DNA of 64,000 nt from contig OZ038465.1 of assembly GCA_964036295.1 (NCBI GenBank), positions 7,753,167-7,817,166 on the forward strand. The letters run 5' to 3'. The notes beneath the pieces were generated by a model, which was given only the letters and a program-made list of their open reading frames with translations, did not search any database and was not told the DNA's origin. The first letter of the stretch is position 1. Each line of letters starts with the position of its first letter. The position numbers were made by a program, and so were the translations under genes. The DNA comes from Plumapathes pennacea (Eukaryota > Cnidaria > Anthozoa > Antipatharia > Myriopathidae). Below, piece by piece: positions 8,087 to 57,062 of the stretch.

Positions 8087-8187
8087 ATATAATTGCGAGG
8101 TTTAGCGCAACATCGCATCGTCACAAATCGTCGTTGCAAATCGGTGTAACAACATATGGACTTGAATTTTATCCACTTCTAGACTAA

Positions 8188-12500: not shown

Positions 12501-13210
12501 TTTAGTTTTGGACTCAAGTGAAGTCTCAGAAATCACTCTAGAGACAGGTGAGTATTACACTGATTTGACCGTTCTTTTCACGATATTCACTCATCCGAAA
12601 GTGCTGTTATATAATGGCGCAATAATGGTCCAAACTTGTAAACTCTCTTCCAAAACTATGCAGTAAGGCCAATAATTCTTTCTTCTTTGGTTGAATATTT
12701 ATCATTTTTCAGTTTCCTAAACTTCCGTCGACGTATTTGTTTTCTGTGTGAGCAGGTGTCATTTTGTCTGAGCCTTTATATCGGAAACAGACCTCGAACT
12801 ATGTCTGTTTCTCTTTTAACCCACTTATCTACTAGAGTTTGATAAATTTATCGTCTACTGACTTTTTATATGTACATTCTAATGGTCTCTATCTATCATC
12901 TGTGTTGCACTGTAATACAAAAATTCCTGCGTGCCTTTGCTTTTGTACCTTTCCAAATATAGCACAAAGTCTCTACAATGCCATTACAGATGGTATTTCC
13001 GGAAGGCTACTACCCTCATTACCAGGTTCCCTCACTTGCCACTCGACATCCCGGTCAGGTGATGAAGGCAACACGGAGAGAGAACAAAAGACAAGCAGTC
13101 GCTCTTTGAAGAAGAAGGAATATTATTATAGCGTGCCAACTAGTAACAGGTTTGATATTCTTGCGGTGGAAGACAAAAGCAGCACCGAAGAAGAAAATGA
13201 CTTGAATTAA
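9523..13210 (+). CDS. Asteroid homologue-like nuclease (XPG/FEN fold), intact, 631 aa
   Basis: Three exons: 9523-9950, 11328-12547 and 12963-13210, all with GT-AG borders and matching phases (2, then 1), giving 632 codons including TAA. The start is chosen at MGIWGLTSY because XPG-family proteins begin with a Met-Gly that sits in the active site; the in-frame ATG at 9439 would add 28 residues. The catalytic acids of the FEN1/XPG family can be placed: D31 (VIIDAN), D79 (LLDG), E144 and D146 (EADQE), and D164 and D166 (TDSDFF). Asteroid proteins are nuclear XPG-like proteins; human ASTE1 (679 aa) has been reported as a structure-specific nuclease at DNA ends. The rest of exon 2 is the asteroid-type C-terminal region and exon 3 is a short charged tail. 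Activity is inferred, not shown. Intron 1 (1.4 kb) holds a foldback repeat. Confidence 0.85.
10399..10525. repeat. Imperfect foldback repeat in intron 1 of the asteroid-like gene
   Basis: The outer bases GTAATATAGC and GCTATATTAC are inverted copies. Inside them, the segment around 10425-10448 (AAGTAGAAAAACACGAGAG) pairs imperfectly with 10488-10511. The arrangement is a hairpin of about 127 bases, probably a non-autonomous interspersed element. It has no coding content. Confidence 0.5.
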
Positions 13211-29000: not shown

Positions 29001-32000
29001 CTCATGCTTTCGTACCTCTCGCTTTGCAGCAAATCTGGCACGGGCACATTTTCATACGAATGTTTCTTAATAGGAACCCGCTGTCTGGAGGGGCAGACGT
29101 TTTCGTAGCCCCCGGCGCTCACCGTGTTGGATCTCTGGTTTATCACGACGTACCCTTCCGGTTCTTCGCTGTCGCTATGACGGTCCACGTCAAAGATGAT
29201 CATGCTCTGTGGATGCTGCGGAGCTCGTTCTTTGAGCTGCACGTTCTCGTACTGGAAATAATTCGTCGTTTTCTCCGGTCTTCGTTGGTCGTAAGTTCCC
29301 TCAGCTGGTCCAGCCTTCCTGGAAACTTGGGGCGAGGCCGTTTCCTTAATCGGCGAGCTCATAACTTCGTAGGCTTTCCGAGAAAGTTCCGGAGTAGCAG
29401 GTTTGACAGCTTCCCTCCGGAGCAACTCCGGCGTGGAAATTATCTCCGGCCGCGTCGCAGGGACCTGTGGTGGACTCCGTTCGATAGTGGGTTTAACACC
29501 GCCAGGGATTTCAGTTCGCACTCGCGTCTTGGGTGGTAAAGCCGGCATGACCGCGTTACGAACCCAAATATCGTCTGTGGTAGCTTGCTGGTGTTCTTTG
29601 CCTGGCAGCGTTGGAAGCTCATCGAACGGATCAACCTCCTCGACCTCGCCGTTCGGACTACCCAGCAGGCACCGCGGGCCGTCACCCTTGGGGAGAACGA
29701 CTTCTGCGTATTGCGTCTTAGAGCTGACAACTGCACACGAAGCTCCTGAAGTCAAGGCTGGTGGTGAGTTCTGTTCCACGGCCACCTCGATGTACTGCAG
29801 ACTCTGCCCTGGTTTCTTCACGGAGCCTTTTTGTTTGATGCCGTTGTTGTTGACTGGCGTGGCTCTGGTAGGTGGTTGGGGTGCTTCGCTAGCGTTCGGC
29901 TGTCGCTCGGTGTCTTCGTCGCACGATGAAGAGGATTTGTGATACGATTTCCCGAAGCTGCTCAGCCTGGGACTATTTCTGTGAAATCCTGGGGATGGTG
30001 GAACTGTCGGGTCGAAGCCAAAGAATGGTGAGCAAGATCGCGAGAAATCCGACAAGAAGTAGCAAACGAGGTCCCTAAGATTTCTAAGAAACACTCTTTA
30101 CAAACTAAGTCAAATTCTGCGAAATGTCTTTGCCCACTCCATTGCTCAAAATTGAAGTTTCTGCACATTATACCACCCATATTGTTACCACGTTAAACAT
30201 TGTCGATCTTTGAGACTCACCTGGGGCGAGAGCTACGAGTTCAAAAGACCCCATCGGTAGAACAGCAGCTTCCCTGGCTGATACTCTAGCTGTAAAGAGA
30301 ATTTAACAAGGTTAAGACTAGAGTGTAAGTGTAAATTGTATACCCTTTTTAAGACAGAGAACCATGAAAACCATACCCGTTCATCGTAACTGGAACTGTC
30401 CGCTTACGAGAATGTGTAAATACAGAGTTTGACTGAGCTAGAGTTTAAACAGGCTTTTGTAAAGGTGGCCGTAAGTATAGCTGTCCGCTTACGATAGTGT
30501 CCGCCCAGAAAGCTTTGATTGTAAAACTTACTTGAAGATCTCTTCTTGGGAGATGCCAGCTTCACAAAGTTGGCGGGAAAATACCCAACTTTCTGTCGAC
30601 AAAACATTTTAGCTACGTCAGTGAAACTTGTATGTATCAAACACATAAGTACTAAATTTTGTGAGGAACGATGTTCGTTGTACTTGACAGCCCAGCTTGC
30701 CGGCCGGCGCCACGTCTTATGTCCTGTTACTATTAACAGTAGTATTTCAAAAGCATCGTATAATACAATAGCGTTATGAGGTTTGGGTGTAATGAGCTTC
30801 GCCTACTGCAGAACACGTTATTAACTCACTTCTTCGCCGTGGATTCTTCCCTTCCACCTTCCATTCTCATTTTGCTCTAAAATCTGAAACAAAAGAAAAG
30901 AAAAAATGGAAACAAGTTCTTTGATACAGATTCTCCTAACTAATCAAGAAGAAAATGTGCACATGATGTAGTGAGAAGTGATAGCCAAATCATTTTTTTG
31001 CTAATGGTAAATAACCCAAGCTATATCAATTGCCAACAATTCCACATTGAACGACAACTAATCTCTGGTAACAGATTTTAAAAGCAAAAATACTGTAGGG
31101 CTAAATAATGATTGTTGGGTAAAAAAACATGGTTTGTTCCCTAACCAAAGAAAAAAACATTAAGCCACTAGACGAGGGACTAATGAACACTATGCTGGAG
31201 TTTTACTGGCTGTTAATTCATATTTTACCTCAATTGTGCTCCCTGTACGAAAGATAAGACACGTGGGATCGTAGATGTTCATATGATCCTTGATAGCCTT
31301 AGCATATGTGCCTTTTACCTCTGTCACCTCTGAGAACGAAGTGGAATGTGCTTGTTAACGTTTTGGGGGAACATGCCTTCGAACCCCCCACCCCATCCCC
31401 CACAAACAACTATTGTGCTCAAACATTTGGAAACTCCATCAAAATCTAATTTCGGCTATTGGACGAATCTTGATGCATAATCCGACAGTGTTTGTTTTGT
31501 CTTGAAGACGCGCATTACCAAATGAATGATTAATCTAAGACAGATAATTTATCTCCAGATTTATATTTGGACACGTTATCCATCTCGCGTATAGCTTGTC
31601 TAGATGGACAATTCGACTCTAGTATAAAATGGGCCAATAAAACAAATTACTGTTGTTCCATCAGACAGGTCTTGCTCCGCCACAGTAAAAGTACAGCATG
31701 TGTGCATGTGTAAGCAATCCAGAGTCAGTAACACATGTACATCATTACCTCTTAACAACTCCTTGATTTCTTTGGAGGCATTGGAGCTTGTGAAGCGATG
31801 AACAATGTCCTCTGCAGTGTGCTGATCTTTGTTTTTTGCAGTAGCATCAATCCCCCACTGACAAAAGAAAACACAAAAATATTTAATAGAGAAACCACAA
31901 TTTGAGGCAATATGCTGTGTGACTGCATGCACATAATTACTTGGCAACAGTCACACTGGTACTTATATGTGGTCCATGACAGGGTAAGTAAGTGGTTGTT

Positions 32001-35000
32001 ATTAAACGGTAAGTATAGTATGATTGGTTAATTTACTGGTCCATAAACTTACAGTACGGACTGGCACATTCTTTTCTCAGCCGAATACACCACATACTAA
32101 ATATCTTTATATTAACCTTGTTTGTTACCTTGCTTTTTTCTTGCCTTTATATGTCCCGCGCTCTTCAAAAGATATATCTATGTGGTCTGTATGTAAGATG
32201 TGCCCTTTCTGTGATAAAGGGCTAGTGTATTGATCAATAATGCTGCACGTTACCATCCCCATACCCCAAGGGGAGTAGGAGAAAATCTCAACCTTTCTCC
32301 CACAATTTTCCTCTTGTGTCTATATTAATACAATATTATTGTTGATATCTGCAGTACATTTGCCTCAAGTCATATCTTACATCTAACAGCAGTTTGACCA
32401 CTTCAGTCTTGCCATACAAGGAAGCCTCATGAAGACAGCTCCCACTTTCGTCCACTTCATTTATATCGGCTCCAGCCTCAAGAAGCATCCTATCACACAA
32501 CAGATCACAAGTATGGCAACCAAATTTGAAAAGACTCTTTATCTTATTCTTGGCCTTTCACCTGGAAGGGATGTGGGGGAGGGGGAGGGGGGAGGGGGGA
32601 GGGGGAATGGGGGGGACTCGTATACATGAGCCTTATGTGTGTGTGCACCATAAGGTACTGTATTTAGCTTTTTGGTCTGGCACAGGGTATAGATTTTGTC
32701 CTTTTGGTCTGGCACAGGGTATAGATTTTGTCCTTTTGGTCTGGCACAGGGTATAGATTTTGTCCTTTTGGTCTGGGATAAAGTATATTAGGGTTTGTCC
32801 TTTTGGTCTAGGTTGGCATGTGACTTTGAAGAGATGACAGAATTATGGCAGCTGGAAATTTGGGGGACAGATCTGTAAAAGGTTATCAAAAATTCCAAAA
32901 ATATGTCAGGGCTTTGGGAACTTTGTGACACACCTCCACCCAATTCTGAAGAGAACCCTTTCCCCCTCCCTGGGGGCTTCTACCCCAGACTAATGATTAC
33001 CTGACAATCTCAACATGCCCAGTCTTACATGCCAGGTGCAGAGGAGGCCGTGTGTTCTTGGGGTTGTTGGCATACACACTCAACAGCTTTCGAACTGAAC
33101 TGGATTTTAGCAAGAGTTCCACCACCTGGAATTCAAATAAGCATGTAACAACTGTTAGAAGGCATGCAGGGCTGTCAAAAGCTGGATTGCAACAGTCCTG
33201 GGTATATCTAGAATGTTTTAACTGTAAGCCAGATAAAGGAAGACTCAATGTACTTGAATTTTGTTTTGTGGTATTCTAAAACTCTTTGGTTTTGGTCTGG
33301 GGTTTACAATATTTTATGAAGCAATGCAATTCATAATAAAATCACTGATACCCAGTATATGCAAATAATCAATCTAAAGGCCCGATCAAACGGTGATGAT
33401 AGTCAATGATAGTTCAAACTACCACGCGCATTTGAACACGAACCATCATGAACTATCATGCACTATCATGGACTATCGTGAACTATCATTCGATTTGAAC
33501 ATGTTCAAATTTCCATGATAGTCAATGATAGTTTTTCGGTCAGCTGTTTTTACCCTGAATGAACAGGCTCAAGCTTTTGCAACAGTCAAAAATGGCAAGC
33601 AATAAAAAGCAATGAACACTAAAGATCCTACTCCTACTCCCTTGACCCGAGCTGTGTTACCTTTGTTTGTAACTCTCGCAGGAGTGCAGACAGACATATT
33701 TTTTACAAATGATAACCTGGGCGATTTTCGGAGTGTCGTGGGCCGTATCGAGTGATGAAGAGAGTAAAATTAAACAAAACAAAACAGATAGTGGTTCGTC
33801 TGTGCATAGAAAGAGCCATTTTTGTCATGTTTCGCTGAGGTGTTGTTGACGTTTTCACGAGAGATTGCATTATTTCCGGTCGACTATCATGCGCTCTCTC
33901 GTGAGCGTTTGATCGCTCTCCGTGATAGTCAGTGATAGTAGGTGATAATTTCGGGATCGCAACTATCAGCTATCATTCACTGTTTGATCGGGCCTTAAGA
34001 AACAAAAGAATATTAACCCTGGTATAAATAATATGGTAGCATGCAGTACAGACTGCTGAATGTCAAACCTGGGTGTGGCCAAAGCGGCAGGCAAGGTCCA
34101 AAGAAGCCTCCCCATTGTGGTTTATAACTGTTGGATCACAATTGTTATCTAAAAGAACTTCAGCCTGTAAAATAGAAAAATAACTTACTATTTACCAAGT
34201 TGCCCACCAAAATCTGCCTCCCTCATTCTAGTAAGACTTCCACACAAAAGATGTACAGCATGCAATGTAGTAAAAGCAAAATAATGTCAACATTTTAACC
34301 ATAATTCCCCCTTCTTCCTTCTTCCTATCCCTCTTCCCCTTCCCCTTCCCCCCCCCCCCCTCCCCCCCACACACACTCTCCCTCCTACGCTATATCCTAC
34401 CCTTCGCCACTTTGTCGCTCATCCTAGCAAAATACAAAATGGTACCTGGATGCAAACAAAGTTATTATGATCTTACCACATCAGCATTGCCATGCTGACA
34501 AGCCAGGTGTAGGGCAGTGACACCATTGTCAGAACAAAGATTCACCTCCGCCTTTGCCTCCAGCAACAGCCTGGCCACTTCAACCTTCCCAGCCCAAGCC
34601 GCAAGGTGCAGCGGACACATGCCTTGAAAGTTAAACATTACACGGTCAACACATGCTGTACACTGCTCTGCGATGGTCATCTGAATAATATACACTATAA
34701 TGAACATCAGAATAGAATGGAACAAGATGGCATGAGCTGGATAATGAGATTGGAAGCTGGAATGTGGTAGATAGGGTGGGATGAGGGAGAGAACTCTGCT
34801 TACTGCATCACCTCATTTAACACTGATACCTTTGTTGTCTGTAGCATTAATGTTGCAGTCCATGTCAATAAGGGACATTGCCACATCAGCAATCCCTGCA
34901 AGGGCTGCATGGTGAAGAGTAGTGAAGCTGCAAATAGAAAACAACCAAGATAAATAGCGGACCTCCAGATCACAAGCTGTTTCTCTTTATTTATGGTACC

Positions 35001-39108: not shown

Positions 39109-39300
39109 ACCAGGGGCCGTATTCACCAAACTTGCTTACGAACAAAAATGTTCGTAAGTATAACTTACGCATCGTAAGTACGACTTACGCACACTATATT
39201 GCGCAAAATAGTATGCATGCGTAAGTCGTACTTACGATGCGTAAGTCATACTTACGAACATTTTTGCTCGTACGCAAGTTTGGTGAATCCGACCCCTGGT
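39109..39300. mobile_element. Near-perfect foldback element, 192 bases
   Basis: The left arm starts ACCAGGGGCCGTATTCACC and the right end is GGTGAATCCGACCCCTGGT. The arms pair over roughly 85 bases with few mismatches, leaving a short centre near 39203. The arms carry repeated CGTAAGT/ACTTACG motifs. No clear target duplication was seen. It would form a long hairpin if transcribed. Confidence 0.8.
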
Positions 39301-40181: not shown

Positions 40182-41752
40182 ACCTTTTTCTTACGGCACG
40201 AACTAAAGCTGATTTGATTCTTAATTTGATTCTGTATTGCTTGGAATCATTTCCCATCCATTCTTTAAATGATTCTAGAATTAAAACATTCAAATTCACA
40301 CACAAACACAAGGATTTCCGCGGCAGAAAGCGTGACACACGGCCTTGTTGTCACGAATTTGAAACATCAATAATTCTTGATAGAAACTTCGTCTCTTCCC
40401 AGAACTTTGCTTGGAGGCTTAACTTATGGTATTCTAGAAAATACCAACGTATTGGTTTTGTAGAATGCATAACTTCCGAGATAATTTTTGATGACGTCAC
40501 ATGCAAACCACTAATACAATAAAAGTTCGTTTGACTGACACCCGACATAAAAATGTCAGCATTTGATGTTGAGCACCCTAAGCGGTACCAAAACGAGTGA
40601 TTTTGACTCCTACAAGAGCCGACGACGAGCATCCCCGTCTTTTTTTATATGGGAGTTCCGCCGCCCCCAGGGGGGAGCCATACTGAATTCGGGTTTCACA
40701 AGGCAGAAATATTCGTCTGGTTCAGTTTCTCAAATAACGTAGGCATTCGCTTCAGTTCGTTTTTGCCTTCTTTGAGTCGACTTTCCTTGGACGAAATACC
40801 TATAACTCCTCCCTCTAAAAATGATACTGTAACTCTTGATCGGGGCTCAAATTTCTGATCATTAACTTTGCGACAAGTGAACAGTTTCGTATCAGTTGAG
40901 TCTACCTTTCGTTCAATGTGACAGAAAAGTGAAATATAGCAAGTTGAATTTTCCTCCGAAAGGAGAAATATATGTAGGTAAGGAGATAGATAGACAGATG
41001 TGAAGAAAGAAAAGAAACAAAAAGCGCGTAGAATCGGTTCCAAGCCGAAAATATCTTTCTTGCTTCATTATTAAAATCCTGTCTGAAGAAAGTTCGATGA
41101 CCTTTCGAACACATAAAGCCTGTTTGTCAACGACACTCAATAAGACAGACAGACTGACAATAAAAGAAATCTGTGTTTTGATAAGTTATTTGTTTTTGAC
41201 ACATAAATGAAGCACTCGGCTTTTTTAACTAATTCATAACAGATTTGGCAAAGACTCATTTCCCTTTCGAGTGCCCTTCGGTTTCACAAGTTAGAAGCGC
41301 GAAGATCCAGCGGGCACGCTTCGTTGGCGGTAATCATCGGTTATGATCAGATGATGGGCGAGAACGTCACACGATGGATTATTCAGAAGTAAAAAAACAA
41401 TACTTTTACGGTCTCCTGGGTGTTAATGCGCATGTAAAATAAACGGTTTACCGACTCTGATCGAAAACAGAGGCAAACGAAGGCAAGGGTAGATGGTGCT
41501 GAAATACGCCTAGAAACAGCACCTATAGAATTAGGATCCGATTTTAGAGGTTTGTATGTTTGATCTCACACTTGATTTCTGGCCCTGCCACAATAGGGAG
41601 TATCCGATTTGTTGACAGCGATCTGCAGACGGAGCATTAGCAGACCGAGTTAGCGGTTTCAAATCACAGGTCCAGCCGAGTGGTGTGGGCCGAGTGGTAT
41701 GGACACGAGTAGCGCTAAATAGTGAGCCACAGTCAAGCGTCACTAAATTGGC

Positions 41753-43177
41753 ATGTCTTCATTCATGGACAGGTCGAGTAAACAGTGGCACTTAAGAAAG
41801 ACTGACGAGCCATGCGACTATAGCAGCGTCTCAAGCGACTTAGAGATGAACGACATCAGAACCGAAGCGGCGAGCGATGTCCCGGTCACTCAGAAAGTTG
41901 TCATACAAGCGCCGTCGGAGAGAGTACGCAACGGCTTGGGGAGGAAGAACAGGCTGAGGAACCCGAAGCGGCACAGGATGAAGCGTGTTCTCTCGACCAA
42001 ACATATGCCCAAGAAACCTCGGCTGGTTGGTAAACACGGTCGTTTGAAGATAGCCGCCGCTCACGTGCCCCAGAAACATGGCATGTACTTCTCAGATCTC
42101 TTCACGACCATGATCGACTCCAAATGGCGCTGGATAACTTTGTTGTATTGTATGATGTATTGTGGCAGTTGGTTGATCTTTGGCGTATTGTGGTACTTGA
42201 TCACGTACTACAGGGGTGATAATTACTGTGTGGACAATGTTTACACCGAATCGTTCGCGAGCGCGTTTCTATTTTCACTGGAAACACAAACTACAATTGG
42301 ATATGGAGGTAGGCAAATAACTCCAAACTGCCCCGAGGCTGTCATCTTGCTTAATATCCAGTCGCTTGTTGGGTTTCTTATCGGTGCTCTGGAGCTGGGT
42401 CTCATTTTTGCCAAGTTATCTCGACCTCGGAACAGAGCCGAAACAATTCTATTTTCGCGTAATGCGGTCGTAGCACTGCGAGACGGCAAAATGTGTCTAA
42501 TGTTTCGCGTTGGCGATGTCCGCAAGAGCCAAATCCTCGAGCCTAATGTGAGAGTGCAAATATTTCGGAAACGCACTACCCGAGAAGGCATCGAGTTGCC
42601 GTTTTATCAACAGGATTTGGCCATTGGCATCGACTGGACGAACCAAGAGAAAGAGGAAAAGCAATGCTACAACTTGTTTATTATTCTGCCGCTCACGATA
42701 GTGCACGTCATAGATGAAGACAGCCCCCTCTTCGACATCCATCCCCGGAAGCTAGCGGACTGCGATTTTGAGATGGTCGCAATTCTAGAAGGCACAGTAG
42801 AAGCAACCGGAATGCAAACTCAAGCCAAAACGTCTTACCTCGGAGACGAGATTTTATGGGGTCACGAGTTTGTGAACACAATCAGTGAAGATCAGTGGAA
42901 GGGAGGTAGGTACCGAGTGGATTTTTCCGTGTTCGACGACACTGTACAAGTAAACACTCCACGTATGTCTGCGAAGGAGTACTACGAGGGAAAGGGACAT
43001 CGTTTGGCTCATGCGTTTTCCGTTGAATCAGAACCTGAAGACTTTGAGCAGAATTTTGATGGCGGTAACGTAACTGAAGATTCGGAAGAAGGAGGGGACG
43101 AATTAAGCAGAGAAGATTGCACCATAGACATATATCCAACGGATGATGACGAATCACCGGTTTGTTATGATGTTTGA
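41753..43177 (+). CDS. Inward-rectifier K+ channel (Kir), single exon, 474 aa
   Basis: A tetrameric plasma-membrane K+ channel subunit with two membrane segments. A basic N-terminal region precedes the slide helix and M1 (WITLLYCMMYCGSWLIFGVL, about 127-146). The pore loop carries the filter TIGYGGR (181-187), where most vertebrate Kir proteins have GYGFR. Flanking cysteines C159 and C193 match the conserved extracellular pair. M2 (about 196-220) ends in KLSRPRNR, the PIP2-binding linker region, followed by a full Kir cytoplasmic domain (VVALRDGKMCLMFRVGDVRKSQ; EDSPLFDI; GDEILWGHEF) and an acidic tail. At the Kir2.1 D172 position (rectification controller in M2) it has G211, so weak rectification is predicted from known Kir structure-function. 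The ATG at 41753 is followed by a second in-frame ATG at residue 5. The gene has no intron, unlike the two paralogues downstream. Confidence 0.93.
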   Translation: MSSFMDRSSKQWHLRKTDEPCDYSSVSSDLEMNDIRTEAASDVPVTQKVVIQAPSERVRNGLGRKNRLRNPKRHRMKRVLSTKHMPKKPRLVGKHGRLKIAAAHVPQKHGMYFSDLFTTMIDSKWRWITLLYCMMYCGSWLIFGVLWYLITYYRGDNYCVDNVYTESFASAFLFSLETQTTIGYGGRQITPNCPEAVILLNIQSLVGFLIGALELGLIFAKLSRPRNRAETILFSRNAVVALRDGKMCLMFRVGDVRKSQILEPNVRVQIFRKRTTREGIELPFYQQDLAIGIDWTNQEKEEKQCYNLFIILPLTIVHVIDEDSPLFDIHPRKLADCDFEMVAILEGTVEATGMQTQAKTSYLGDEILWGHEFVNTISEDQWKGGRYRVDFSVFDDTVQVNTPRMSAKEYYEGKGHRLAHAFSVESEPEDFEQNFDGGNVTEDSEEGGDELSREDCTIDIYPTDDDESPVCYDV

Positions 43178-44485: not shown

Positions 44486-47400
44486 ATGAGGTTCACGAAA
44501 GTAAAGATTGACAACTTCTACAACCTGAAAGAGGTTGACCTGGACCTGACAAACAGGAATACACTCATTGTTGGACCAAACGGAGCAGGAAAAACTAACA
44601 TCATCAAGTGTATACAGTTTCTAGTTCATCAGACTCTCAAGCGAGAAAACAAGGAAACTGATTGGTTACTTTCATTGGGAGAAATGGACCACCCGGAAAT
44701 GTATGACTTGACGTATTTACCACAAGAGCATCATAAGCAAAAGATTTGGAATCCAAACGAAAAAGACTGCCACATTGAACTTCATGCACAGTTCAACAAA
44801 GCTGAGATGGAGTTGTTTTCTGAGCTGAGAGTTCTCTCTCTTATGGCAGATGTGTGTTACGTTGTTTACATTGTAACAGCATTGTTGATGGGTGAAGCTG
44901 CGGATCATGAGAGGCAATTTTACAAGGACCATGGCTTAAAAGACTACAAGCGTGATCCAGGAGAACTAAAAGAAATGTTTATTAACAGTCTGTTGGAAGA
45001 CAAAGAGGGAATTTTCAGTGACTTGCCAGAGGCTACACTGAGAAATATTATAGATCAACCCTACCCTGAAAGAACGTGTCATGCACAATTGAGCGACATA
45101 TCTGAATCTGATGAACGTCGATCGTTAAGCACTCCATGTGTGGCACAACTAGTCATGGAAGTCACCAACAACTTGTTTCCCGAGTTACTGAAGATCACAA
45201 AGAGGGCTTTGTCTGAGTGGCAGGACACGCCTTGTCCAGTTGAAGCTCCTAGTCATGTGTTGATGAGGGCACAAACAAACGAGACCTCGAGCCGAATGAA
45301 GTATTCTTTTGATGTGTGAGTAATGATACCCAGGACTGCTTAATCAATAGTGGTGTGAGAAAGAGGTCCAGGGGGGATTGCCTGATTCTGGTCATGATTC
45401 CAATGTTTGCCAGAAATGTTTGAAGTCTTTTGGCTAATGCATACTGGGCAATAGCATGATTTTATTGTGGGATTTATTTGTTCAGTTCAACTTTTATATT
45501 GTAATGCATTTATGCATTGATAGGTGTACTTTAAAGAAGTGGGTGACCTTTTTTCTGAAGCTTTCGAGCACTTTAGAGTTGACCACATGCACGCAATTTC
45601 ATGCTACACGCGTGTAATCAACGCAATATTAGATAGACTATGTCTGAATGAGTTTCTTTAGAAGCCGCCGTGAACCGCAAACCGGCGGGGCTGAACACTG
45701 AGACAGTTTTCGAAGCGAAGTAAATTATTCGTTCGGGCGTGAACAAACGGTGCAAACGACTCGATCGCGTTTTATAATTGCGAAAGTTTGCTTTTCCCTG
45801 TAGTTTTCAAATTTACGAATACGCGTGTAATCAACACCATATATGTATTTGGTACGCAACAAGACCAGATCTCACACACTATTCATCTGCAGCGTGTATT
45901 TCACGATGTTAATGTGCGTGTCCATGCATGTAAATGTACTAGCTGGACCCCAATGAGTATTTATATATTTGTCAATATATTGTTGTACTTGCAGTTTCAA
46001 TGATGACGGGCTACCCACCAAACACCCAAAGTACAAGAAGGAGGAGTGTAAAGTAATTTGCAGCACTTTACAAAATGTGTTTGGTGAAATGAGAAACATA
46101 AAAATTTCTTGTAAGTTCTCAGAAATTTTATACCTTCTTTACTCTGAAATATGTTTCCTATGGAAGTGAAATGCCGTCTACCCGCACGCATTGATGCTGT
46201 ATTTTCCATACTTTGTCCATTCGCACTAGGGGTACCCCAACGTGAGTCGCAACGGCAAAACAAGGAGCAGCAATGACAACTACATATTATGTTATCTCAA
46301 GATTGAAGTTTTAACTCACATTAATGACCAAATACGAACCCATCGAGGATTCATAAATGTTTCACTCTCCACCGACTGATAAAACAGATAAACTTAAGAT
46401 GCCGTATTCCTCGATAAATTAAGCGCCCTCCCTCGATTAAGCCCCCCCTTTGAGCACGATATTCGAAATAAGCGCCCTCCCCTAGCCACAAGTTGCCAAA
46501 ATTTTCCTTAAAAGTTGCTAAAATAAATCCAAAAAGGTGCCAAAAAGTTGCTAATATTTCAAAAAGTTGCCGAAAAGTCATTCCCAATTTGATAGCAAAG
46601 TTGGTCTAAAATGACCAAAAGTTGCTTATTTTTCCGACTTATTGCCTGTGAGTTATGTTTGAAACGTTGCTCTACTGTTAGCATATTTCTGAGTCAGAAA
46701 ACTCATCCGCATTCATCATTTTCGGAGGATGAAGATGAATAATGTACTAAGTATAACTGGAAATTTTTGTAGTGGAATAATGGATTAATGGTCTTTTCGG
46801 GAATAACGGACAAACGACGTTTCCTTTGGCCCAGGAATAATGGAAAATGGAAATTTTAGAGCTGGAATAATGACACTAATTCCGGATTAATGGAATAATG
46901 AACACTCCATTATTCCTCTTCGTCCTTTGATCATTTGCTGTCATTCGCCATTTTGCTTTCGCACGTGACCGCTGACTGCCGTCGACCACTTTGCTTAATT
47001 GATCTGTGTTCCAGACAATGAAAATCACGGACTAAAATACTAATTTTCAATTTTAAAACATGAAAAATTGCCGAGCAACTTGTGGCTAGGCCTACCCTCT
47101 TCTCTCCCTCAAAATATACGTACAGTACGAGATTTTAATCTGTTACTGTAGCAAGCCCCCTTTGGCCATGAAATTTGAAAAAGCGCCCAGGGCGCTCATT
47201 CGAGGAAATACGGTAACTGAATACGTACCAGCATATTGTAGCGAACATGAGTTGTTGTTATCCGCAGGAAAATCGGGCAATACCTGTTTCGTTATTGACC
47301 AAGAACACTAAAGTAACCTTACGGCTCTAGTGGCTTCCGCAAAGAAAATTTGAATACACTCACTGCACGTGCTGAGCATCATGACGTTGTGTGCGCATGT

Positions 47401-50400
47401 GAGCGTTGTCATTGCTCAGCTGGCTTCAGTTGTCACATGACGTGATCATCCGGACAAACATCCAATAATCGAGTCAAAGAGGAAGATTAATTTGCTGCCT
47501 TTTCGTCGGCATCAATAATTTATTAGCGCCTACAATTAAAGACCTTCATGGAAAAACGGCGGATGCGACAATTTACTTCGCTGTCTTCAAAATACCGAGT
47601 TAATAACAGCTCGAAGAAAGTTTCCACTTCCGACTCGACGCTGGTTCAGAACTTCAGCTCAAGGGGTCTGAAGTCTGTCCTTTGATCCTGACCTCATTTC
47701 AGTCGGTTTTGTTAGCTTGTTTGTTGTCGCAATTAACCAGCGAAAGAATGAAAGTTATGACCATTTTTATTTCTCACTGCTGAGTGTGCTATGCATTGAT
47801 ATTATCTGTCATGACAGTGGTCACATGGGTAGCTAGTCAATGCTAAAAGCTTTCCTGGAATACACATTTTTCACTCTTTAGGATATCTTAGGGTCTAAGA
47901 TAATTCAAAGACCAACTGAAAAGCTTGTTGTGTAACCTTTCCATTTGAGGTGTATGAGATGACCGAAATTACGATTAGCCTTATAATTCATAATTTGAAC
48001 TGGGCACAGGTTCGATTGCTAATGAACTATATGGGTTGACCCCATTGTTGTTGTTTTTAGCTTTACACAATCGCATCGCAGTTACAGTACATATGCAGAC
48101 CAGATATTAAACCTTGGCATTAATATGCTGATGTTCTAACCTCACCTGTGTTTTGTTGTTTTTAGTTTGTAAAAAGCTGGCACCAGTATCCTCTTTGTAT
48201 GAAGCTGTAAAAATCCTGCCTAAACTCAACTTCGAACGCTTTGACATACGTCCAAAGGTGAGGGGTGTGTCCACTTCGAAATTTGGCAGGCCACCCTGGG
48301 CAGTCAGTGAACTTGTGGACAAGCTGCATGGCAAAGTACAATACACCCCCTGGGGTGATCTCTTCTCGCGCTGTTTGGCAAAGCTACAGCTGAGGGATTG
48401 GAGAAATGTCCTCTATTTTAACAAGAAGACATTCTTCCATTATGCAGCCACACGTTTCTTGGAGAGTAGCACCATCAACTGTATACTCCCACAGGTTAGG
48501 GGAATTGCAATGGAGAATGACGATATGCCATTTACCATAAATTCACTGGAAAAACAGCTCATCAGTTGCAAATTAAAGTAAGTCTTGTCATAGTGTTACT
48601 AGATTTCCTGACCTCTGAAAGTTTGTTTGAAATTAGGACTCGCTATATATTATTTTAAGCCGTTATTACATTGACTATTTTTAACAGTAAAGATGAGGTG
48701 ATGCAGCAGCAGTTCAGCAAAGTGAAAGATGGCATGACGTCATTTTGTGGCATTAAAATCCATGTGCTGCAGCGAAAGGAAGCTTTGGTGCAAGACAACG
48801 ATGAAGAGGCAAAGAAGATAGAGGAACTCGGGGATGAGTTGCGAGGCAAAGACCGAGTTGGACTCCTCGAATATGGTTATCGCCTATCCTGCATTGGGCG
48901 TGAAATGATGCGGAAAGCACCTTCCTGGAGTGGTGACCTGCATGTCATGGTGACGCGAACACAGAGAAATGAAACGTCAACCTACAGCCACAGAACCCCT
49001 CTGTGCGGCCTTAGTGGAGGAGAGGTCGAAATCCTGATGGTATTGTGTACCATCCATCTGTCAGGAGCTGAGACTGTTTTCCTGGATGAACCTGGGCACT
49101 CTCTCCACCCCCCTCAGCAGGCCCAGTTGTGTCGCTGGATCGAGACCCTACAGTACCCGGACCCAGTGTGTGTCGTGATTACTCACTCTGTTGAGTTCAT
49201 CAGCCGCAAGTCTCTCTGTTCCCTCTATCACATGTCCTTCACAGGAAGGGGATTCACTCCGTTCAAGTTCAGTGTTGATTCAGAAAGAGCGAGGGAGCAG
49301 CAACCTGTCCCAATGGAAGAATCCTCCGCATCATCAAAGGATGTCGTCTTGAGCAGAGAAATGCTCAACATGCTGATGCGACCAGATATGCGCAAGATGT
49401 TCTTTGCAAGTGGCCTGTACCTTGTGGAGGGCGAGACAGACAAGCTTGTCCTATCCGCGGTGAGGCACCACTTGTTAAAGGACGCCCGCAACACAAAGGA
49501 GAAAAGCATGGATGTCCGGGAGCTCCTACAAGCAGTGCAAGTGCTCGAAATGGATCAGTGGGACATCCTGGCTCTTGGAGGGTGTGCAGAGGCAATGAAG
49601 GCGTACAGAGCAGCTGCAGCGCTGAGGATTCCATGTGCTATTGTGCTGGATCTTGACGCAATCACTGTCAAGCATGGCAAAAGAGTGGAGCCTTTCTGTT
49701 CCAAGACCTGGGAGAAATCAAGGATGTACAAGGAGCTGACAAAGGAACGGCAACGGAACTCTCTCGAGGTCGCAGAAACTTTGCTGGATAAAGTCCAATC
49801 TGTGTTTACAGATACAAAAGAAGATGCCTTGAATGAAACCCGTACGATTTTGCAAGAACATGGCATCTGGATATGGAAGGGTGACTTGGAGTCAGTAGTC
49901 TGTGACAATCAAGCAGCAAAGCAGCAACTCCGAACATCTGAATGCTTCATGGAGGCTCTTGGGGAAGACATGTCTGTTTCTTTGTCCGTCAGTGGTCGAG
50001 AGCAAATGCCAGCTAAGGATGCCTTGAAGGACTACGATGAGCGGATTTTCATTCCGATGCATTCTTTCGTAGATGAACTTTCTACGGCACTTGATGCTGC
50101 TCGCCACCAACGCCAGATTAATCCGTCGCAGATTGTGACTGACGAGCTCCAGCGAATATTTGGGGAAATTAACAAATGCAAGCAGCGCCTCATTCAACAT
50201 GATAAATTCTGCCAAAAGGGGACCAAACGAACCGCCGACTGGAAAGCCAGTGAGATTGCTACGTCTAAGAGGCCCCTCCTTGATCCTCCACTGCAATCCC
50301 ACGTCCACCATAGTTCAGAAGCGATGCTCCTGGAAGACACTGATCCCGAAGCAGATGGAGGAGCCTGCAGCAACACAGCGCAGCCTGGTATCAACGAAGG

Positions 50401-50653
50401 TTTTGAAAAGATGTTCTGGGACCGTGTTAAACACAAGCTTCATGAAGGTGGATGGATGAAATTTTCCTGGGAAACACTGTGTGAAGTGGTGGAGGTGTGT
50501 CTTGACGCAAAGTCAAGTCCCTTACAGGACTTCTGCAGATTCATGAAGAAATGGCAGTGCAAAGGCAAGAAGAAGATGAAGCCTGAAGATCTTTCTCGGA
50601 GTCTCCTGAGCAAACTCTTTGCTTCTACTGAAGAAGACACCGAGGGCAAATGA
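44486..50653 (+). CDS. OLD-family-type protein: ABC-like ATPase with TOPRIM nuclease domain, 1,107 aa
   Basis: Four exons: 44486-45315, 45995-46110, 48166-48577 and 48688-50653, GT-AG with matching phases (2, 1, 2), 1,108 codons including stop. The start MRFTKVKIDNF is chosen because RecF/SMC/OLD ATPases begin with this strand just before Walker A. Motifs in order: Walker A GPNGAGKT (30-37), signature LSGGE (561-565), Walker B VFLDEP (583-588, D586 and E587), switch His VITHS (H619), then TOPRIM motifs LVEGETD (E700) and VLDLDA (D774, D776). An ATPase split by a long insert and followed by TOPRIM is the layout of OLD nucleases (phage P2 Old, GajA). The C-terminal third (about 800-1,107) has no domain I recognise. 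In bacteria these proteins nick or cut DNA under ATP or nucleotide control, often in phage defence. The role in an animal is unknown. Introns argue against bacterial contamination. Confidence 0.85.
46400..47216. mobile_element. Probable MITE-like repeat in intron 2 of the OLD-type gene
   Basis: The left edge (GCCGTATTCCTCGATAAATT, then AAGCGCCCTC) and the right edge (GGGCGCTCATTCGAGGAAATACGG) are inverted relatives, separated by about 800 bases of AT-rich sequence with runs such as AAAAGTTGC. There is no coding frame. Target duplication is not clear, so the exact ends are approximate. Confidence 0.5.
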
Positions 50654-50749: not shown

Positions 50750-52180
50750 AAACGCTTTCCTGGAGTGACTTGCCAGTCATGGTCACAGCCCAAGTTCGTC
50801 TGTCAGGGTCGATGTGGTTTTTTCGTTTAACTTCGTTACTCCCTACACCCCCTCAGCAGGCCCATATGAGTCGCTGGATAGGGACTTCACCGCAACAAGT
50901 GTGTAAAGTAATCACTCACTTTGTAGAGTTCAGCACCTGCAAGTCCGAGGTCCTTCAATCACATGTTCTTCGTGAAGAGGACTTAAACTGTTCAGACCCA
51001 GTGCAGATAGAAGGAGACGGAGCAACAGCAGAACCATGTGCGTCTTCAGTTGCACAATCCAGTTCACCACCAAGAATAAAGCCTTAAAGGATATGTTCCG
51101 TGGTTATTAAAATAAAATGGGTACAGTTGTCAATTACGAGGATTTGGTGCAGTCGAGGTTTGGAAATCTTCAAATAGACCACTGGTACACCTTGGCCCTT
51201 GGGGGATGTAGTAGAACATTGATAAGCCGCACAAAAACGGCATGGAACCGTTCAATTCCAAGACATTTGACAAAGAACTTACAAATGAAATGCTCTATTT
51301 CAGTGGCATTATGTTTGCTGGATTAGATTGAGTCAGTCTTCAAAGATAATTTTTCAACGGGAAAGCCTTTAGTGAAGACAGAAGAAACCTACGACAGCAT
51401 GGGTATTTGGACGTGGAAAGGCGGCCTTGAGTCAGTAGTTTGTGATAAACTAGAAGTGAGAGGTAAACTAAAAAAAAAACTGAATGTTTCATGGATGTTA
51501 TTTGGCGAGAACGTTTCTGGTTCTTTCGCTATCAGTGGTCGGGATAAAATGAGAGTGAAATGTGCCACAGATGTTAAATCTTTTACCACCTTTCGTTTCT
51601 TTTATGGTTGAACTCCCAAAACAGCCGGACGCCGCTCGTGATAGACTCCGCGAAGATCCTTCGCAGGTCGTTACAGAGCACCTGCAGAAGCTGATCACTG
51701 CTGACTGCAACAAGCAGGCACTAGTGCGACATCATAACGGTTCCACAAACAAAGAGCTGAGAAAATATGTGCCTGATCCTTCACAGCAGGATGCAGCGTC
51801 AAAGCTTCCAATAAAGATGCATCGGCATTCCCTTGCGGATGAGAGGGGCGGCACCATTGCCGGCCCTCTGAAGCGATTTCTGGGAACGCATGAGGCGCAA
51901 ACTCCACTACAATTGCGGATGGGTGAAATACTGGTGAAAGTAGCGGAGGTTTCTATTTATGCAGAGCCAAAGTCGTTAGTCCCCCAAAGGATTTCTACAG
52001 ATTCAGGAATGAATTGCAGTGTAACAAAAGGACCAGGGCCTTTCTGAAAATCACTTATGCGAGAACGTTTTCCTGGTTGTAAAGATTATTATTATTATCA
52101 TTAGTGTAAAGGGTAGAAGAAGATGAAGGTTGCAGACCTCTGTAGAAGTCTCTTGTGCAAGCGTTTTGATGCTGCTGAGA
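50750..52180 (+). pseudogene. Decayed second copy of the OLD-type ATPase-TOPRIM gene
   Basis: Starting 97 bases after the intact gene's stop, this stretch follows the last exon of that gene in order, with several frame changes and stops. Around 50750-50790 it matches the region before LSGGE. At 50850-50960 PPQQAHMSRWIG and VITHFVEF match PPQQAQLCRWIE and VITHSVEF. At 51175-51215 WYTLALGGC matches WDILALGGC. At 51400-51560 MGIWTWKGGLESVVCD matches HGIWIWKGDLESVVCD. At 51610-51700 DAARDRLREDPSQVVTEHLQ matches DAARHQRQINPSQIVTDELQ. At 52108-52180 the match is to the C-terminal end. The Walker A exon, Walker B Asp-Glu and TOPRIM EG motif are not recognisable. It is a tandem duplicate that has lost function. 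Confidence 0.85.
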
Positions 52181-52828
52181 GTAATGCCTTTGACGAGTGG
52201 CTCAAATATTTTACGCTCGACCATAGTTTTGCTGTAGATTTTTTTTTTAGCATACAGTCCTAACTGAACGCAGACGGGCTGAAAATTGCGAAAGTAATCC
52301 CCACAAAGATTGGTCAGACATACAAGAAGCTCTTTGGAAAGCAGAAAAGTTTAATGTTGATTTGGTAAAACTGTTAGATTGGTAGTGTTGGTAGTTTTTA
52401 ATTTTAACACTTCTAAAACTTGAATAAACGTTTAGACTCTGATCGAGTGCATGAACTGTTACCTGTACATGCTTAGCGACGCGTCTCAGGGCGAGGGGGA
52501 TAGTCCCTTTTGTACTTTTAAAATGGTTCAAAGACCATCCAACTATGGTACCTGTAACCTGGGAAGCTCCGCGCTGCACGGCCGCGTAAGGCTGGGGGTG
52601 AAACCACAGGAATTCGAAAATAGTGCGCGTGTAGGCTAGACTGCCACTCCCGCTTCCAGGAATTAAGAAAAAATACTAATTCGCTGCACGCATGCGAGAT
52701 GTAAACCCTTTCTTTTTGTATTGGAGTCACAAATTGAATTGAGGGACCCCACCTCCTACCCCTCGGGAAGCAGATTTTTTCATGCCGCTGTGGCCTTGCG
52801 GGCGCACTTTTTCCGTTGGTCATCCAAA
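52181..52828. other. Intergenic stretch before second Kir gene
   Basis: No gene is supported. It includes the promoter and 5' UTR of the Kir gene at 52829. An in-frame ATG at 52721 could extend that protein by 36 residues, but the sequence between is not Kir-like. Confidence 0.45.
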
Positions 52829-54140
52829 ATGAGTCGAAACGGATCGGAGCAACTGTTACACACAGATTCACCAAGAAAAACCTACAAGAATACGGACCAG
52901 CCGAGCATCAACAGCCCTTCTGACAGCTATCTCTGCCCCGAACATGCTTTTTCTCGACTATCTTCTCCGCCGTTTTCACTGAACAGTTCAAAAACTCGAG
53001 CACCAAGGCGGCGTTTAGTCGGCAAGCGAGGCGAGCTTCGCGTCGTATCGAAGAACGTACCCAACAAGACAAAGCTCTACGCGTCGGATTTGTTCACTAC
53101 GGTTATCGACCTCCGCTGGCACTGGGTTCTGCTGTGTTTCGTTTTGTCTTACATCGTGTCCTGGTTGTTGTTTGCTTTAATATGGTGGGCCATTGTGCGT
53201 GTGAGGGGAATTGATGTCTGCTTCGAGAACGTAAGTACGAAAAGAGAAATTGAGTTTTACTCCCGTTTAGCCTGAGTTTGGAATATATGGGTTGTACCTG
53301 CTACTCAGAATGGACAAATAATATTGTTATTTATCACACAGTATTGTGTTATTTCAGGTCAAAGACTGGACATCTGCCTTCCTGTTTTCAGTCGAAACTC
53401 AGCAGACGATTGGATATGGTGGACGGTCAGTAACCACTAAGTGTCCTGAGGCAGCCATCGTACTGCAACTTCAGTCAATAGTTGGAGTAATGATCGATGC
53501 TTTTTTGCTTGGTCTGACATTTGCCAAACTGTCTCGTCCTCGGGAGCGAATGAAGACTGTTTTATTTTCAGAACATGCTGTCATTAGTCTCAGAGATGGA
53601 AAAATGTGCTTGGTTTTCCGAGTTGGTGATGTCAGAAAAAGCCAGCTGGTCGAGGCTCACATCCGATTGCAGTTGTTCCAAAAAACAGTCACAACTGAGG
53701 GATATGAATTTCCCTTCTACCAACAAAACCTCAGGGTTTGCTATGACTGGCGAAATTATAGAGAAGACGATGACCGTCATCAGCTGTTCTTGCTGTTTCC
53801 ACAAGACATAGTTCATGTGATCGATGAAAAAAGCCCACTCTATGATATCACACCAGAGATCCTGCAAGGATCAGATTTTGAGCTGGTTGTGGTCTTAGAT
53901 GGGATTGTTGAAGCCACAGGCCTCAATATGCAAGCAAGGTGTTCCTATCTCAATGATGAGATTATGTGGGGTTATGACTTTGAGGCCATGGCTGATAGAT
54001 CACAGTTTGATGAAGGAGACTCCATGTTTTTTGCAGACTTCTCAAAACTAGATGATAGGTATCAGACTAATATCCCTACATGTTCTCCAAGGGAATACTA
54101 CCAACAGATAGAGAATCATTTAGAAACAGAATGTGTCTAA
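52829..54140 (+). CDS. Inward-rectifier K+ channel (Kir), two exons, 394 aa
   Basis: Exons 52829-53230 and 53358-54140 (donor AAC|GTAAGT, acceptor TTTCAG, phase 0). The start MSRNGSEQLL is chosen for its AAAATGA context. The conserved body starts RRLVGKRGELRVVSKNVPNK, followed by M1 (about 97-120). The intron falls just after the conserved extracellular Cys (C131) and before the pore helix. The filter is TIGYGGR (151-157) and the second conserved Cys is C163. M2 carries D181 at the Kir2.1 D172 position, so strong inward rectification is predicted. The cytoplasmic domain is complete (SLRDGKMCLVFRVGDVRKSQ, IDEKSPLYDI, NDEIMWGYDF). It has an acidic stretch REDDDRH in a loop where Kir2.1 is much less charged. 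The C-terminus ECV resembles a class III PDZ ligand; this is weak evidence. It is closely related to the gene at 55297. Confidence 0.93.
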
Positions 54141-55296
54141 CTGACAACCCAGCAACTTCTGGAATTACACAGTTTTAACAGACACACCAGCAAACTTTAG
54201 TCAACAACAACATAAACACTGCCACTAGATTGTACTCAAAGTAACATTTTCAATTTACAATTTAATATTTTCTCTTCTATAAAACCTTTTCAAATAGTAC
54301 TTATTGGTTCTCCCTTCTATTCTGAGTGAAATCCTGATTTTTCAAACCTTCAAGGGGATCGGGGACTGCTGAGAACCCAAAATAGTTCTCTGAGCAACTG
54401 ACATGGAATGCCTTGCCTCCTGAGCTGACATCTCTTTCTTCAAGAAGTATTTTAAAGAAAGAATTAATAAGTTCATGTTCAGTAATAAATAAAGTGGTTA
54501 TAAATTTTTAGCATTTATTTGTGGACATTTAGTGAGATGCAATTTTAATGTACACTTTTTATACTTTTATCTTATTACAGTATACCTTATGTTGTTTTAA
54601 TAATATCATATTTCATGTACATATTTTTAACTATATTAAGTCTATACTTTCTGGCAAATAAGTGTGCCCTATTGAAAATCACATGAAGTGACATAGGCCA
54701 TCTGTATAACGAATTGTTTTGTTATTATATTATGAATGAAAACATTGGTTCATGTTATCAATAGTTGAGAATCAGGTGTAAAATTACAGTTCGGTGTTAA
54801 CAAGCCAAGGGAAACAAGTTTTGGTTCAAATAATGGGGAGGTTCTAATTATTGAGAGCTTGGAAAATTGAGATTCCACTCTTCATACATATTTTGATTTA
54901 CAATGTAGCTAAATGATCTAATATCTCCAAAAAATGAAGACATTTTTGAGCAATTTTTTGGTTGTTTCTAGCCAGATTCACACCACCTTATATTTATTCT
55001 GTTACCCAATATTGAAGCAGCTGTTTTCACAGGTTTTACATAATTGATGCTGCACTCTCACAACTACATTTTCTTCTTGAATGTTGGCACTTAGCTCAGG
55101 ATAAGATAACATGCAAAGATTTGTCTTTCTGTCCTGGGTTGAGATTGAGTGCAATTTATTTTCTAACTTTACGAGATGCTGGTAAACCTGATCTTTATTT
55201 TTCATCAATACATCGTTTTCATGGAACACGCCTGAAAATCATGCTTCTGAAACATCTCAAAGTTTGGCTACTACCCCCTCTCCTCCCCCATCGCAA
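54141..55296. other. 3' UTR of second Kir gene and upstream region of third
   Basis: AT-rich, with a polyadenylation signal at 54484-54489. The rest up to 55296 should hold the promoter and perhaps a non-coding first exon of the third Kir gene. No other feature was recognised. Confidence 0.5.
54484..54489 (+). terminator. Probable polyadenylation signal AATAAA
   Basis: AATAAATAAA lies about 345 bases after the stop codon of the Kir gene ending at 54140. Confidence 0.55.
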
Positions 55297-57062
55297 ATGT
55301 TTGTCACGCGCGCGAAGACTGGTAACGACAACATGGGGTCTTTAATGAACAGCAGGCTGACAGATCGGCCGGCGTCTGTGAACCTTATGGTAAATATGAC
55401 TGAATTTACAACTAAAGAGCGATTAATTGAGCCAGGCAAATCGAATGTGAAGCCTTGCACCAGCACAGAGCTACAATCATGCTCGGAAAGTTCCTCGAGT
55501 ATCCCAAACTTTCAAGATGTGTCTTGTTTTCGCCCGTTGGCGCCTTCTTCACCGACATTTTTCCAGCTGCCTTCGCAAGCGTTACTAAATTCACCGAAGC
55601 AGCGTTTAGTCAGCAAACGAGGAAACCTTCGCGTCGTATCAAAAAACGTTCCCAACAAGGCCAAGCTTTACGCGTCGGATTTGTTCACTACGGTCATCGA
55701 CCTCCGCTGGCACTGGGTCCTTTTGTTCTTCGTTTTGTCTTACATCGTGTCTTGGTTGCTATTTGCTTTAATATGGTGGGCCATTGTGCGTGTGAGGGGA
55801 GTTGATGTCTGCTTTGATAATGTAAGTTCGATTGCCTTTTCATTTTCTCTTCCCTGGCTTTTTTTTTTTTTTTTTTTTTTTTTTTTCTTTTTTTTTTTCC
55901 TGGGGCGGAGTCCCGGGCCAGGTGGGTGGGGTAGGATTTCTTCGCCCACCGGAGGAGAATAAATCAGGAAAATTGAGGAATATCTACAAAATAATGATTT
56001 AGTTTTCTGGCTTAAAATTTGCTTATTTAGCAAACAATTTGGGTAAGAAATGGGTTGGAAAGGAAATCTAGGGATTATATAAAAGGAACTAATTTTGATA
56101 CAAGAGATAAAAAATCTAAATTTCCCCTTCTTTGTGGCAGTTATCAGGTGGTTGGGCTGTAAAATAGGACTTTGCAGCTCTTTGTCAGAAAAGAGTTGGG
56201 TAAGGATGATTATTCCAAATTAATAGTACTATTAATAATAAAGAAATTTTCAAACCCTTCTTGTCTGCAGGTCAACAACTGGACATCTGCCTTCCTCTTT
56301 TCAGTTGAAACACAGCAGACAATTGGTTATGGTGGACGGTCAGTAACTACCAAGTGTCCCGAGGTAGCCATTGTGCTACAGTTGCAGACCCTTGTGGGAA
56401 TAGTAATTGATGCATTCTTGCTTGGCTTGACATTTGCAAAGATATCTCGCCCTCGTGAACGATCAAAGACGGTGCTCTTTTCAGAGCATGCTGTGATAAC
56501 TCTCAGAGATGGCAAAATGTGTTTAGTTTTCCGAGTTGGAGATGTCAGAAAAAGCCAGTTGGTTGAGGCTCATATCCGTTTGCAGCTGTTCAGAAGCATA
56601 GTAACGGCCGAGGGACATGAATTTCCCTTTTACCAGCAAAATCTCAGGGTGTGCTATGATTGGAGAAATTACGAAGATGATGACGACCGCCATCAGCTAT
56701 TCCTGTTGTTTCCTCAAGATGTTGTTCATGTCATTGATGAAAAAAGCCCCTTTTATGATGTCACACCAGAAAAACTCCAACAGTCAAATTTTGAACTTGT
56801 TTTCATTCTAGATGCAATAGTGGAAGCAACAGGGATGAACACTCAAGTGAAAGGCTCCTGTCTGAGTGATGAGATCTTGTGGGGTTACGATTTCAAAAAT
56901 GTTGCTGACAGAGCACAAGTTGAGGGAGGGAACTACTGGGCAGATTTTTCACAATTTAATGAGCTATACGAAGTTGATACTCCAACATGCTCTCCGAGAG
57001 AATATTATGAACAGCAGGGAACACAGCTAAGGAATGGTGCAAAGGTTGAAAATTTTATTTGA
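55297..57062 (+). CDS. Inward-rectifier K+ channel (Kir), two exons, about 438 aa
   Basis: Exons 55297-55821 and 56271-57062 (donor AAT|GTAAGT, acceptor TCTGCAG, phase 0), at the same intron position as the gene at 52829. The start is uncertain: ATG 55297 has a poor context and ATG 55333 (ACAACATGG) a strong one, giving 438 or 426 aa. The N-terminal 100 residues are Ser/Thr-rich and not conserved with the paralogue. From KQRLVSKRGNLRVVSKNVPN on, similarity to the 52829 gene is very high. The filter is TIGYGGR (192-198 counting from 55297). D222 in M2 predicts strong rectification. The cytoplasmic domain is complete, with an acidic YEDDDDRH stretch. The intron has a T run at 55858-55899. It forms a recent tandem pair with the gene before it; the two may form heterotetramers, which is inference from the family. 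Confidence 0.92.

Follow-up and report, generated by a model that had tools for sequence, protein, structure and literature searches.

Nucleases of the OLD family are known mainly from bacterial defence against viruses. A locus of the antipatharian Plumapathes pennacea (Cnidaria, Anthozoa) raises the question whether an animal chromosome carries such a gene, how it came there and what it may do. The locus lies in a stretch of 64,000 nucleotides (assembly GCA_964036295.1, contig OZ038465.1, positions 7,753,167 to 7,817,166 of the forward strand), hereafter the window, to which all coordinates refer. A first-pass annotation, made from the letters alone, had placed here an animal gene for an OLD-type ATPase-TOPRIM nuclease. 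In this study, we conclude from its sequence that the gene is an OLD-type ATPase-TOPRIM gene and that it lies in an animal chromosome. The best explanation of the whole, which we regard as probable, is an OLD-family ABC ATPase fused to a TOPRIM nuclease that has long been resident in the animal genome and acts by the steps proposed below. Of the new points, the most informative is that an OLD-TOPRIM protein of an animal has an intact ABC signature; this allows a testable prediction on the mode of action.

Gene structure

From ATG to stop the gene spans exactly the coordinates first annotated, and its four exons give a single spliced frame. All three introns (679, 2055 and 110 nt) are GT...AG and, as had been claimed, phase-consistent, the phases at the exon ends being 2, 1 and 2. 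Exon 1 ends in phase 2 and exon 3 starts in phase 1, so that, given these splice sites, exon 2 cannot be skipped without loss of the frame. Exon 4 makes up 59% of the coding sequence, in agreement with the estimate that about 60% of it, with signature, Walker B and TOPRIM, lies in one exon. The features are the following, with amino acid (aa) positions in the spliced protein:

44486-50653, + strand: OLD gene, ATG to stop, four exons, spliced frame of 1107 residues
44486..45315, + strand: exon 1 (830 nt), start codon and ATPase N-lobe
44573-44596, + strand: Walker A GPNGAGKT (aa 30-37), in exon 1
45995..46110, + strand: exon 2 (116 nt), about 38 aa of the insert
48166..48577, + strand: exon 3 (412 nt), 137 aa of the insert
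48688..50653, + strand: exon 4 (1966 nt), ATPase C-lobe, TOPRIM, C-terminal extension and stop
49010..49024, + strand: canonical ABC signature LSGGE (aa 561-565), in exon 4
49076..49093, + strand: Walker B VFLDEP (aa 583-588), followed by an LHP motif, in exon 4
49178..49186, + strand: switch/H-loop ITH (aa 617-619), in exon 4
49400..49657, + strand: Pfam match to OLD-like TOPRIM, PF20469 (aa 691-776)
49427-49441, + strand: TOPRIM motif EGETD (aa 700-704; E700, D704)
49649-49657, + strand: TOPRIM motif DLD (aa 774-776; D774/D776)
49880..49891, + strand: motif GDLE (aa 851-854), absent from the list of the first-pass annotation
49937..50650, + strand: C-terminal extension (aa 870-1107), about 240 residues past the TOPRIM core

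Exon 4 is contained in a stop-free run of 664 codons, while none of 200 base shuffles of the surrounding 7 kb gave a run longer than 208. A chance assembly of motifs is ruled out by this run together with the Pfam matches and the profile-versus-shuffle score given below. Between the ATPase halves, where OLD proteins carry a helical dimerisation domain, lies an insert of about 400 residues (aa 131-530) without detectable homology, the exon 4 part of which is modelled with low confidence. Exon 3 had no Pfam match at E up to 1, and no Pfam family passed its cut-off in the C-terminal extension (49970-50650).

Assignment to the OLD family

Three Pfam families carry the assignment, each above its gathering score: AAA_21 (5.2e-12), AAA_15 (1e-11) and OLD-like_TOPRIM (PF20469; 4.3e-7, 30.8 bits against a gathering score of 23.2). 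In PADLOC, Old is the best model (1.3e-20), followed by mad3, GajA and others, and exons 1 and 4 match PHROG family 4747 collinearly. The predicted structure of the TOPRIM domain points the same way, its first Foldseek row being the OLD protein of Thermus scotoductus (TsOLD; E 0.037). Moreover, a profile was built of 34 C-terminal halves, of which genomes supplied 29 and viral contigs 5; these had been aligned with the animal row before that row was removed. The match of this profile to the exon 4 protein runs from the signature to past the TOPRIM domain (probability 99.4, E 4.9e-22, score 168.3), whereas the top-ranked of 30 shuffled sequences reached a probability of 2.0 and a score of 25.4 against the same profile.

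Walker A, LSGGE, the Walker B Asp-Glu, the switch His and the TOPRIM EG and DxD motifs are all read in the spliced frame, in the order of OLD nucleases, as the first-pass annotation had listed them. The invariant columns of the joint alignment are those of Walker B (E, P), LHP, TH, EG and the first D, with the second D nearly so. In the 35-row alignments the TOPRIM E, G and first D never vary, and conservation of the second D is 90% or above.

The active site of BpOLD, in the part of the published account covered here, comprises E400, D455 and D457 for metal A and E404, T506 and E508 for metal B (PMC6755086). In the animal protein D704 stands four residues past E700, a place also held by D or E in the nine relatives printed in the alignment. 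E854 of GDLE is common to the nine relatives printed, its column not being among those conserved at 90% or above in alignment A4, and the string GIWIWKGDLE resembles GIWVWAAGCIE and similar strings in the Pseudomonas/Halomonas/Akkermansia group. E854 is probably a fifth TOPRIM residue beside E700, D704, D774 and D776. By pattern, BpOLD being outside the alignment, it is a candidate counterpart of BpOLD E508, with D852 at the position of T506.

The ABC signature

Starting from plasmid matches, relatives were fetched from viral contigs and by a genome scan with two motif patterns, which is no survey of OLD proteins; they came from at least 44 loci (at least 35 prokaryotic genome contigs and 9 viral contigs). 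With L014 omitted as a repeat of the match of L013, 43 open reading frames (ORFs) were read. Alignments A3 and A4 each hold 34 of the 43, and the tree holds 36 of the 43 and three plasmid proteins (P0001-P0003). Five ORFs were dropped for having no TOPRIM (L007, L008, L028, L035, L040) and two as cut off or near-duplicate (L010, L017); L029 and L031 were further omitted from A3, and L016 and L029 from A4. For the signature count, the 43 ORFs less the five without TOPRIM leave 38, and less L029, which begins after the site, 37, some of them near-duplicates. The TOPRIM of L023, missed by the regular expression, was counted as present. An automatic match in L030 (residue 270) follows its Walker B (227) and hence is not at the signature site.

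LSGG[EQ] stands at the signature site in none of these 37 TOPRIM-bearing relatives, among the matches listed, whereas the animal gene has LSGGE. Nor do TsOLD and GajA, as aligned, show the canonical sequence there. In the parts of the literature covered here, the signature is reported to be degenerate in all Class 1 OLD homologues, and one Class 2 enzyme is likewise reported to have no canonical signature. The order and the motifs of the first-pass annotation are thus borne out, with one correction: LSGGE, which it lists among the motifs in OLD order, is not typical of OLD proteins among the relatives compared. Given the sampling by two motif patterns, OLD proteins with a canonical signature may exist elsewhere. 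Since the signature is canonical, the ATPase heads could engage in the usual ABC way, and the mode of action of the ATPase half may be closer to that of Rad50/SMC, to neither of which the protein belongs.

Proposed mechanism and role

We propose that ATP binding would bring two ATPase heads together. Because LSGGE is canonical, their engagement would be Rad50/SMC/RecF-like and not the non-productive arrangement reported for nucleotide-free TsOLD. Once engaged, the heads would position the TOPRIM domain for two-metal cleavage, or permit this cleavage; the nucleic acid cut would most likely be DNA. With less certainty, a prokaryotic gene would have been gained by an old horizontal transfer, directly or via another eukaryote, and retained for one of two roles which we rate about equal: surveillance of the genome against viruses or elements, or DNA repair.

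The strongest rival concerns the role only and overlaps with this explanation: the protein would be a DNA repair or genome-maintenance enzyme, doing RecF/RecN/Rad50-like work with a TOPRIM nuclease, and not a defence protein. We take this seriously without favouring it. The canonical signature, as in SMC/Rad50 heads, argues for it. The depletion of CpG in the coding exons (see below) fits a germline-methylated gene body, an argument which is silent on the role. Cran1, an archaeal OLD protein of Saccharolobus islandicus, has a reported cell-cycle role and apparently none in antiviral defence, in the part of its description covered; therefore an OLD protein need not serve defence. Furthermore, Bhattacharya et al. 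2016 (PMC4878875) list among 41 horizontally derived anthozoan genes an 'ATP-dependent endonuclease' (Table 1 row 36, Seriatopora_21195; support 100, source dinoflagellates), called a DNA repair gene of algal source in the anthozoan ancestor; as far as the text covered shows, the repair label is an annotation. The PDB name of TsOLD is similar, 'Putative ATP-dependent endonuclease of the OLD family'. Matched by description and not by sequence, Seriatopora_21195 is an animal gene like ours, and one that is listed as gained by horizontal transfer; given this listing, the OLD gene may not be new.

The first-pass annotation knew of no described animal function. Among the papers listed in searches of open-licence literature, no title or abstract start names an animal OLD protein, and none is mentioned in the passages covered of an OLD review and of the archaeal OLD paper. 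An anthozoan gene of like description has been published with an interpretation as DNA repair.

Against repair and for a defence-type character speaks the neighbourhood of some bacterial relatives. Eight hand-picked flanking ORFs were scanned, with no chance control, in six of seven listed loci of groups A and B (L046 was left out), these groups having been drawn by eye before the tree was built. Restriction-type loci account for two of the six examined. A group A protein (L038) is surrounded by an N6 methylase, a specificity subunit and a restriction subunit, and a restriction-type protein adjoins that of L034. Single neighbours are a SIR2-like protein in L018, a Fic protein in L020 and a phage terminase in L024; one ORF scanned in L043 matched no family. 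Other loci look linked with conflict or with prophages. The defence-type character had been claimed from the family; the two restriction loci of bacterial relatives agree with it, and for the animal gene itself defence would be one possible role.

In Pseudomonas yangonensis (L038:32-7998) a type I restriction locus holds the OLD-type gene, with the specificity gene on one side of it and the restriction gene on the other.

More speculatively, an OLD-type ATPase-TOPRIM nuclease might be retained by some animals for cell-autonomous protection from foreign or aberrant DNA, and a bacterial defence-type effector would thus be under animal control. Because LSGGE is intact, it would be a Rad50-like ATP-switched nuclease, unlike the OLD enzymes compared. 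We put this forward as a tentative idea and rather an unlikely one.

Origin

The tree, which has 40 rows, places the animal protein with group B, whose members include Synechocystis, Pantoea, Bergeriella and Clostridia, at a support of 99/95. Approximately unbiased tests disfavour joining it with group A plus L013 (0.035), group C (0.026) or group D (0.003). The placement is weakened by the end branch of the animal protein, 2.11 changes per column long, and by the flag on the letter make-up of this protein. The segment scores are split: the full protein scores best with group B (52.0 bits), the TOPRIM piece with group A and the C-lobe with groups C and B. We name no donor because of this long branch, the split signal, the flagged make-up and the drawing of the groups by eye.

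By tblastn, the exon 4 protein matched one of 50,697 phage records (E 0.08) and eight of 72,556 plasmid records, the best (E 2e-4) in an ABC transporter-like ORF. Two scans of the window proteins against viral contigs found no relative. A recent donor among phages or plasmids is ruled out by the sparse tblastn matches and the viral contig scans. A horizontal origin is plausible on the sequences compared. The first-pass annotation had spoken of a domesticated or horizontally acquired defence-type nuclease; an OLD family member in an animal chromosome, with signs of constraint and of long residence (see below), agrees with this in part.

The split scores could also reflect a chimera, an OLD TOPRIM domain having been added to the ATPase lobe of a TOPRIM-less AAA_21/AAA_15-type ATPase. 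All five ATPases without TOPRIM that were fetched carry LSSGE or LSAGE, and segment identities to them reach 32-43% over about 60-75 residues. These identities are inflated by short identical motifs, however, and both the best full-protein score and the tree lie with the OLD proteins of group B, so that we judge a chimera unlikely.

Two Phycisphaerales OLD-like proteins (L016, L017) of about 730 aa hold the exact DEPGHSLHP of the animal protein; the tree, which includes L016, does not join them.

Residence in the animal chromosome

The gene lies among three inward rectifier potassium channel (Kir) genes, together with a degenerate copy of itself:

41747-43177, + strand: first Kir channel gene
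50776..52188, + strand: degenerate tandem copy of exon 4, found by BLAST
52667-54140, + strand: second Kir channel gene
55192-57062, + strand: third Kir channel gene

The OLD gene and its copy stand between the first and the second Kir gene. The upstream neighbour is an animal-type Kir, with 302.6 bits to an ATP-sensitive inward rectifier potassium channel 8 chain against 110.2 for the best bacterial-type channel. The G+C content (GC) and third-position GC (GC3) of the OLD gene are similar to those of its neighbours.

The OLD coding sequence counts 98 CpG and is thus depleted, since 500 codon shuffles gave 139.7 on average and never fewer than 124; the observed/expected CpG ratios of its two longer introns are 1.03 and 0.93. 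Coding ratios are 1.12 in the first Kir gene and 0.42 and 0.46 in the C-terminal ORFs of the second and third. CpG depletion in coding exons fits a germline-methylated gene body.

The tandem copy is identical to the OLD gene at 140 of 334 aligned residues. Its BLAST pieces lie in three frames with two in-frame stops, and the alignment lacks the DxD stretch. The pairwise ratio of nonsynonymous to synonymous changes (dN/dS) between gene and copy is 0.32 (bootstrap 0.18-0.46), with dS about 1.6, which is saturated; the estimate comes from BLAST pieces, which favour similar protein, and counts six query residues twice. These values fit a gene long resident in a methylating animal genome under constraint, CpG depletion and dN/dS being no proof of expression.

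Might the gene, like the neighbouring copy, be decaying and without current function? The degenerate state of that copy would suit this. Against it stand the 1107 stop-free codons with the catalytic residues kept and the dN/dS of gene and copy, and we think decay improbable.

Several results would suit a eukaryotic protein of ordinary Rad50/SMC/RecF type whose TOPRIM-like stretch arose by chance. Among solved structures, Rad50 is the best match by sequence (1e-6), ahead of GajA (0.0018) and TsOLD (0.0061), the best stretches all being N-terminal. In the exon 4 model, the best matches of the ATPase lobe are SMC/Rad50-type heads. AAA_23 scores 40 bits, above its cut-off of 27, and ABC_tran is likewise above its own. 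On the other hand, SMC_N falls just under its own (39.5 against 40), whereas OLD-like_TOPRIM passes. The insert shows no strong heptad window by a crude coiled-coil score, its longest run free of Pro and Gly (in aa 111-530) being 44 residues, and the TOPRIM acidic residues and LHP motif agree column by column with OLD proteins. An ordinary Rad50/SMC protein, to which we give very little credence, is contradicted by these points and the profile match.

Contaminating or symbiont DNA, from a bacterium or from a dinoflagellate, the published source of the anthozoan 'ATP-dependent endonuclease', is least credible of all for a GT-AG spliced gene with neighbour-like GC and GC3, lying in 64 kb with its tandem copy and with animal-type Kir genes on either side.

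Other features of the window

At 2004-17143 (+ strand) lies an array of XPG-type nuclease genes, in which all four ORFs scanned match XPG_N or XPG_I_2; we take these genes to resemble 'protein asteroid' homologues. The translations of the ORFs at 2004-2450 and 14829-15275 are, by eye, near-identical. One or more multi-exon genes occupy the minus strand at about 21632-34812, with one ORF holding a SAM domain and one ankyrin repeats. Tandem repeats were seen at 32670-32776, 28258-28403 and 39152-39257; the repeat types in the window are a period of 32 with 100% matches, a period of 17, and two neighbouring period-20 arrays with units that look like near reverse complements of one another. Rfam gave no match at gathering score in the window.

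Comparison with known systems

Like Class 1 OLD proteins (P2 Old; TsOLD, PDB 6p74), the animal protein is encoded by a single gene with an ABC ATPase followed by TOPRIM with EG and DxD. The gene is also standalone, flanked by Kir genes and its own degenerate copy. Unlike them, it has 1107 instead of 528 aa, with a long insert and a C-terminal extension, an intact LSGGE where Class 1 is reported degenerate, and an acidic GDLE after a helical stretch.

With Class 2 OLD/GajA proteins (BcGajA, BpOLD, XccOLD) it shares residues that by motif fit the metal-A E, D and D, acidic residues at the E404 position and, by pattern, at the E508 position, and a stretch after DxD modelled as helices, in part with low confidence. 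It differs in that D852 would stand at T506 and in the presence of LSGGE; no counterpart of K562 was identified in the animal protein. No GajB-type UvrD-like helicase was found among the 11 other window ORFs that were scanned with Pfam, and the nearest genes found on both sides are Kir channels. Membership in Gabija is rejected, there being no helicase neighbour among the ORFs scanned.

The Class 3 effector of retron Eco8 has the same ATPase-TOPRIM order and is among the best VIA rows. The NCBIfam model retron_eff_Eco8 matches aa 1-55 only (34.8 bits against a cut-off of 250), and no retron element was found in the window, as sought by Rfam and in the ORFs scanned only; membership in a retron is unsupported. 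Cran1 belongs to the same family and is set beside the animal gene by description, not by comparison of sequences.

With Rad50 and SMC heads, finally, the animal protein shares the canonical Walker A, LSGGE, Walker B DE and His switch; unlike them, it has a fused TOPRIM nuclease, an LHP after Walker B and no detected coiled coil. If it is expressed and active, OLD nucleases would join the bacterial defence-type proteins with animal counterparts, and there would be an OLD enzyme whose ATP cycle is testable by the logic of Rad50/SMC. The gene also provides a concrete candidate to set against the coral-acquired 'ATP-dependent endonuclease'.

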